From Prochlorococcus sp. AG-402-G19 (lineage in GTDB: Bacteria > Cyanobacteriota > Cyanobacteriia > PCC-6307 > Cyanobiaceae): a stretch of DNA of 34,112 nucleotides. The stretch lies in contig QCHU01000014.1 in NCBI GenBank assembly GCA_003279455.1, forward strand, positions 1-34,112. The letters are read 5' to 3'. The notes below the pieces were generated by a model, which was given only the letters and a program-made list of their open reading frames with translations, ran no database searches and had not been told where the DNA came from. Positions 33,583 through 34,112 of this stretch are shown in pieces. Positions within the stretch are counted from its first letter, which is position 1. Each line of letters starts with the position of its first letter. The position numbers and the translations under genes are program-made.

Positions 33583-33831
33583 ATGGCTGCCGGCTCTACC
33601 GGGGAACGCCCGTTTTTTGAGATCATTACAAGTGTCCGCTACTGGATTATCCATGCAGTGGCACTTCCTGCGATCTTCGTGGCAGGATTCCTATTTGTGT
33701 CTTCTGGGCTTGCCTACGACGCTTTTGGAACTCCTAGACCAGATACGTATTTTCAGGCTGGAGAAAGCAAAGCTCCTGTTGTTGTACAGCGCTTTGATTC
33801 CAAGGCTGAACTGGACACGCGTCTGAAATAA
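33583..33831 (+). CDS. psbE: Cytochrome b559 alpha subunit
   Basis: PsbE is a single-helix thylakoid protein that, with PsbF, holds the heme of cytochrome b559 in photosystem II. The 82-residue protein has the typical N-terminus [20 protein letters not shown], with heme ligand His24, one helix, and the lumenal tail [12 protein letters not shown] start preceded by a GTGAGG ribosome-binding sequence. Both length and sequence are normal. The gene that normally follows, psbF, is absent at this place; psbL begins 29 bases after the psbE stop. Confidence 0.97.
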
Positions 33832-33860
33832 CCAAATTTCATCTGATTGCTTTATTATCC
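33832..33860 (+). other. psbE-psbL junction lacking psbF
   Basis: Only 29 bases separate the psbE stop from the psbL start. In cyanobacteria and plastids the order is psbE-psbF-psbL-psbJ; a psbF gene of about 40-50 codons would be expected here. No frame in this gap or the flanking sequence encodes the PsbF helix with its heme histidine, and I did not find psbF elsewhere in the window. Confidence 0.9.
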
Positions 33861-33980
33861 ATGCAAGTCAATCCAAATCCAAATAAAGTTCCGGTTGAAT
33901 TAAACCGAACAAGTCTTTATCTTGGACTCTTACTTGTTTTTGTAATGGGAATTCTTTTTTCCAGTTACTTCTTTAACTAA
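33861..33980 (+). CDS. psbL: Photosystem II protein L
   Basis: A 39-codon gene encodes [20 protein letters not shown] followed by the hydrophobic helix [19 protein letters not shown]. The [13 protein letters not shown] sequence and SSYFFN end are diagnostic of PsbL, a single-helix subunit at the photosystem II dimer interface. ATG start; no obvious Shine-Dalgarno. It lies 29 bases after psbE and 11 bases before psbJ and is surely co-transcribed with them. Confidence 0.97.
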
Positions 33981-33991
33981 ATCTCTTTATC

Positions 33992-34112
33992 ATGAGCAAA
34001 TTAAAAGGACCTGATGGACGAGCAGGAGATCGTCTACCAAATGGTATGCCTGCAGTCTCCTGGGAAAGACGATGGACAGAGGGAGCCCTCCCTTTATGGT
34101 TAGTAGCTACTG
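33992..34112 (+). CDS. psbJ: Photosystem II protein J (partial, cut by window end)
   Basis: The first 40 codons are visible, starting [20 protein letters not shown] and reaching [17 protein letters not shown] at the window end. PsbJ is a single-helix photosystem II subunit near cytochrome b559; the PLWLVAT segment is the start of the helix. The long N-terminus (about 35 residues before the helix) matches the extended picocyanobacterial form rather than the ~40-residue plant protein. The rest of the helix and the stop lie beyond the window. ATG start, 11 bases after psbL. Confidence 0.94.

Follow-up and report, generated by a model that had tools for sequence, protein, structure and literature searches.

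Loss of psbF in a Prochlorococcus clade and its probable replacement by a PsbY-PsbF fusion protein devoid of the heme-ligand histidine

The window analysed here is a stretch of 34,112 nucleotides, corresponding to contig 14 of a Prochlorococcus draft genome (1.28 Mb in 45 contigs, 66.7% complete). It ends in the photosystem II cassette psbE-psbL-psbJ, and raises the question of what became of psbF, the gene for the beta subunit of cytochrome b559. The sequence-only reading had claimed that psbF is absent from this cassette although the genes are intact and in the usual order, the 29 bases separating psbE from psbL leaving no place for it. Our analysis bears out this description, the relevant features being as follows:

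32459..33475, plus strand: ycf48-like gene located 5' of psbE, used as marker for the species tree
33583..33831, plus strand: psbE, cytochrome b559 alpha, 82 aa (Pfam and NCBIfam match)
33832..33860, no strand: psbE-psbL gap of 29 bases, site of the missing psbF (sequence reading)
33861..33980, plus strand: psbL, 39 aa (Pfam and NCBIfam match)
33992..34112, plus strand: start of a gene running off the window end, presumably psbJ (named from its position)

The PsbE and PsbL proteins of the window score as normal members of their Pfam and NCBIfam families, and there is no PsbF in the gap among the listed frames of at least 20 aa.

Comparison with close relatives, a check that the sequence-only reading had proposed, shows that the junction is not peculiar to the window. 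The psbE-psbL locus was read in 57 genomes (duplicate loci removed): 20 from the genus of the window (g1, window included), two from its sister genus (g27) and 35 from other genera. The 20 g1 genomes are part of the 41 of this genus. We take g1 and g27 to be NATL2A-like, low-light Prochlorococcus. In all 22 g1/g27 genomes, the psbL ATG lies 27-34 bases past the psbE stop and psbF is lacking; psbF is present at this locus in all 35 genomes of other genera, read identically. As complete single-contig genomes (e.g. G032, G002 and G062) are found among the 22 psbF-less loci, an assembly or collapse error, one of the causes initially put forward, is ruled out. In addition, g1 and g27 form a single clade (support 95/96) in a tree of the ycf48-like protein built from 21 rows, and one loss of psbF is therefore sufficient.

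Relocation of psbF elsewhere in the genome had been suggested too, together with a genome-wide search, which we conducted with the TIGR01333 profile. Up to E=10, no canonical, His-bearing psbF was found in seven near-complete g1 genomes or in the complete genome G062: each of them provides one strong match (E of 7e-17 or better), the remaining matches being psbE at E of about 0.2 and three noise rows. In the window genome, psbE is the sole match. Similarly, a second NF002717 match at E<=1e-6, a level at which the canonical psbF of other genera appears, is absent from all 41 g1 genomes. Plain relocation is thus unsupported. That a canonical psbF exists in g1/g27 genomes and was merely overlooked, through an ordinary artefact or relocation, would fit the 66.7% completeness of the window genome; however, complete single-contig relatives are devoid of it up to E=10 and the same type of search does recover psbF in other genera, so that we regard this explanation as extremely improbable.

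The strong TIGR01333 match in g1/g27 genomes corresponds to a protein roughly 96-97 aa long, encoded far from psbE. In G032, it belongs to NCBIfam family NF002717, "cytochrome b559 subunit beta, long form" (183.4 bits, for a cut-off of 153). This protein is a fusion, in which a PsbY-like helix is joined to a PsbF-like helix, the last 39 residues being PsbF-like. The PsbF-like helix reaches 35 bits with PF00283 (cut-off 30) and 61.9 bits with TIGR01333, barely over the cut-off of 61.15. It shares with canonical PsbF (TIGR01333, PF00283) the helix itself, the YPxFTVR start and the FFLGA core, but differs from it by the preceding PsbY-like helix, by a Thr that mostly replaces Trp and by an Asn where the His ligand of the heme would stand (RTLAVN instead of the canonical RWLAVH). 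Thus, of what characterizes canonical PsbF, g1/g27 genomes retain the helix sequence, and lack the His ligand and the gene position between psbE and psbL. Asn occupies the ligand site in all 95 distinct long-form 87-base sequences (148 loci), and His does so in all 35 distinct canonical psbF sequences (44 loci), as counted with a pattern that fixes the flanking residues and leaves the ligand position free (forms too divergent for the pattern escape this count). The fusion of G072 has kept the Trp, yet also carries Asn at the ligand site. The constancy of this Asn points to a specific contact, which might be with a heme or with the PsbE His.

Several hhalign comparisons relate the front half of the fusion to PsbY: 96.4% with a score of 45.6 (17.0 for the best-ranked of 40 shuffles), 92.6% with a score of 34.5 when no intermediate sequence was used (best-ranked of 40 shuffles, 14.1), and 94.5% with a score of 37.0 when all PsbY sequences came from other families (best-ranked of 40 shuffles, 15.0). 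The Pfam PsbY profile alone does not match the NATL2A-like fusion of G032, and it matches two other fusions weakly (E of 0.0085 and 0.011). AlphaFold predicts the structure of the fusion with low confidence (mean pLDDT 54.5). A stand-alone PsbY-like protein of G111 (L261:1501-1563) already carries the FWLFRWGVFNLDNVPA stretch of the fusion.

The fusion gene of LLI-type genomes is not a decaying pseudogene: no amino-acid change separates the PsbF-like parts of 20 LLI loci (dN of 0.0000 at a dS of 0.69). For the front part, dN is 0.058 at a dS of 0.53. An HL copy (L102 in G269) shows a frame change near the end of the fusion and may be a pseudogene. A phage origin of the fusion is unsupported: 50,697 phage records contain no match, and none was confirmed in IMG/VR.

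Overall, NF002717 is over its cut-off in 46 of the 400 family genomes. The fusion is found in 31 of the 41 g1 genomes (one copy being cut by a contig end), for 33.3 expected from completeness (P(31 or fewer)=0.22). In g27, it is present in G062 and G118 and was not found in G145 (59% complete). The contigs of G015 and G028 end inside the fusion locus. In near-complete genomes of the clade, the fusion is the only beta-like gene found. As for the window genome, its assembly contains neither the fusion gene nor any of the surrounding 3.7 kb; as this whole region is unassembled there, a true loss of the fusion is unsupported, and we infer that the cell from which the window derives carries it.

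Outside the psbF-less clade, the fusion of Prochlorococcus coexists with ordinary psbF and psbY. Co-occurrence with canonical psbF is observed in groups g34, g63, g40, g41, g77 and g58, part of the HL-like (g41) and LLIV-like (g58) members harboring a more distant form of the fusion. Genome G069 carries both forms. The complete HL-like genome G397 carries two fusion copies (L099 and L100) plus a canonical psbF. Five incomplete drafts from other genera (G072, G095, G151, G260 and G362) showed only the fusion in the NF002717 search. As psbE was also not found in G072 and G095, their psbE locus is unassembled, and the five drafts were not counted as psbF losses.

In the clade, psbY is missing as well as psbF. 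No g1 genome out of 41 has a psbY match over the cut-off (best E of 0.125), and none was found at E<=0.05 in G032, G002 and G062. By contrast, psbY is over the cut-off in all 11 Prochlorococcus-like genomes with canonical psbF that were checked, each either HL or carrying the fusion (G069, G098, G136, G123, G152, G392, G397, G112, G314, G324 and G335). G085 has a canonical psbF and no psbY match, and loss of psbY is thus possible alone, without the fusion.

In both LLI and HL loci, the fusion gene lies between two divergent genes, A (122-145 aa) and C (137-202 aa), exemplified by locus L117:

L117:3373-3810, minus strand: gene A, small membrane-type protein
L117:4454-4975, plus strand: gene C, small membrane-type protein

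Among 80 loci, nine are cut and the other 71 were scored. Gene A adjoins the fusion in 20/20 LLI-type, 42/43 HL-type and 1/8 other loci, and gene C in 20/20, 43/43 and 3/8, respectively. Considering 201 family genomes, gene C is present in 43 and gene A in 39. Of nine HL-like (g41) genomes, the six with the fusion have both A and C, and the three without it are also without A, one of them retaining a C fragment broken by a stop; in HL-like genomes, A and C thus come and go with the fusion. Both genes also occur without the fusion, in the complete genome G111, which has canonical psbF. Besides genes A and C, G111 encodes the stand-alone PsbY-like protein mentioned above and no fusion, and may represent an intermediate. 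Neither A nor C has a match in Pfam; in NCBIfam, one gene A row reaches 12.9 bits and nothing else was found, and a PDB search returned nothing beyond one match at E of 0.31. Gene A proteins invariably have a His where their first hydrophobic stretch ends, and an RFxxIWVxP-type motif is repeated within gene C. A flavodoxin gene (L117:2443-3066, minus strand) is located two genes away from the fusion in the listed LLI-type loci, and is not adjacent to it in the listed HL loci.

We consider it probable that psbF and psbY were lost in the g1+g27 clade and that the His-less PsbY-PsbF fusion took over both roles. Since the PsbF-like helix keeps most of the PsbF helix, it would pair with PsbE in photosystem II, and the front helix would fill the place of PsbY. 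As the second His is absent, the usual bis-His heme of the PsbE-PsbF pair cannot form, and the cytochrome b559 of the clade is predicted to be either heme-free or to hold its heme by the PsbE His alone. The sequence-only reading had envisaged a cytochrome b559 built in an unusual way, and the His-less PsbF-like fusion of the relatives supports this option, but not the PsbE homodimer that was suggested with it. Tentatively, and with somewhat less than even confidence, we propose that the photosystem II of the NATL2A-type lineage is without any b559 heme and, PsbV also being missing, has the non-heme iron as its only iron. A strong PsbV match was obtained only in three LLIV-like genomes of the 18 checked; this pattern and the nearby flavodoxin gene are compatible with iron saving, without demonstrating it. 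Alternatively, a five-coordinate heme may sit on the PsbE His facing the conserved Asn, a reactive heme that would replace the electron carrier.

Several observations count against a takeover by the fusion: its absence from the window assembly, the weak or absent Pfam PsbY matches, the low pLDDT of the model, the existence of a psbY-less genome without the fusion (G085) and the poor performance of most Synechocystis b559 His mutants (PMC9214863). The long form might instead work elsewhere, in the antenna or in assembly, without being the beta subunit of photosystem II, cytochrome b559 then consisting of a PsbE homodimer or of PsbE alone. That the fusion persists in other genera endowed with canonical psbF and psbY does imply some role of its own, its cassette with genes A and C is found in LLI and HL alike, and the heme His of PsbE is kept. 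Nevertheless, the two genes missing where the fusion stands alone are precisely its two look-alikes, psbF and psbY, and the constancy of the PsbF-like part among the 20 LLI loci also argues against a role elsewhere, which we judge unlikely. Even less credible, in our opinion, is that another protein, such as that of gene A, provides the second ligand and maintains a bis-His heme: gene A has an invariant His and adjoins the fusion in nearly all LLI-type (20/20) and HL-type (42/43) loci with full flanks, but it accompanies canonical psbF without any fusion in G111, and we read its His as sitting elsewhere along the helix than that of PsbF. Takeover of both roles by the fusion remains our preferred explanation.

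The fusion belongs to the NCBIfam families NF002717/NF002720, whose name implies an ordinary beta subunit and is silent on the missing His, the PsbY-like front and the status of sole copy in the clade; this standard annotation conceals the absence of the heme ligand. A comparable arrangement may exist in Acaryochloris photosystem II, where chain 7ymi_F, a PDB entry of 99 aa bearing the name PSII protein Y, comprises PsbF-like and PsbY-like parts and is, in our reading, a fusion; unlike in Prochlorococcus, the parts are in reverse order and the PsbF-like part retains its His. Another parallel is provided by the PsbE H23A and H23M mutants of T. elongatus (apo-b559), in which one heme ligand is likewise gone: such PsbE-ligand mutants are reported to have active, heme-less photosystem II, with activity at wild-type level (PMC9214863). 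That change was made in the laboratory and in the alpha subunit, whereas the Prochlorococcus change is natural, affects the beta subunit and is fixed in the lineage. According to the same paper, most Synechocystis b559 His mutants accumulate little active photosystem II unless psbEFLJ is amplified, and in Arabidopsis, the high-potential form of b559 requires PsbY (PMC9214863).

For Prochlorococcus itself, a MIT9312 transcriptome paper names a gene for a PsbF-like protein (PMC6517427), and a proteomic study of SS120 reports a beta subunit, in fusion or canonical form, near the level of PsbE (PMC5451487). In the accessible portions of the open-licence PMC literature on Prochlorococcus psbF (including PMC2663038, PMC10161378, PMC4823308, PMC5464585, PMC5126843 and PMC5295598) and of PMC6769238, we found no mention of a His-less beta subunit or of psbF loss in this clade. 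A 2025 review states that there is no consensus on the physiological redox role of cytochrome b559 (PMC12661325). A lineage whose only beta subunit is without heme ligand represents a natural experiment on the need for the b559 heme and, should the site be heme-free, one iron would be saved per photosystem II in an iron-poor ocean. As the clade seems to include a cultured strain, direct testing appears possible.

It had also been argued that a normal PsbE makes an unusual cytochrome b559 less likely. This argument carries little weight, as PsbE exhibits a clade-specific change: the heme His is kept, and three residues past it, Ala replaces Thr in all 22 psbF-less genomes, Thr being found at this position in 34 of the 35 psbF-bearing genomes. 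As it represents one event on the tree, this replacement is no more than suggestive. The psbF-bearing exception, G048 (L016), has its Ala within a rearranged PsbE stretch following the heme His (IIHIPAITILF).
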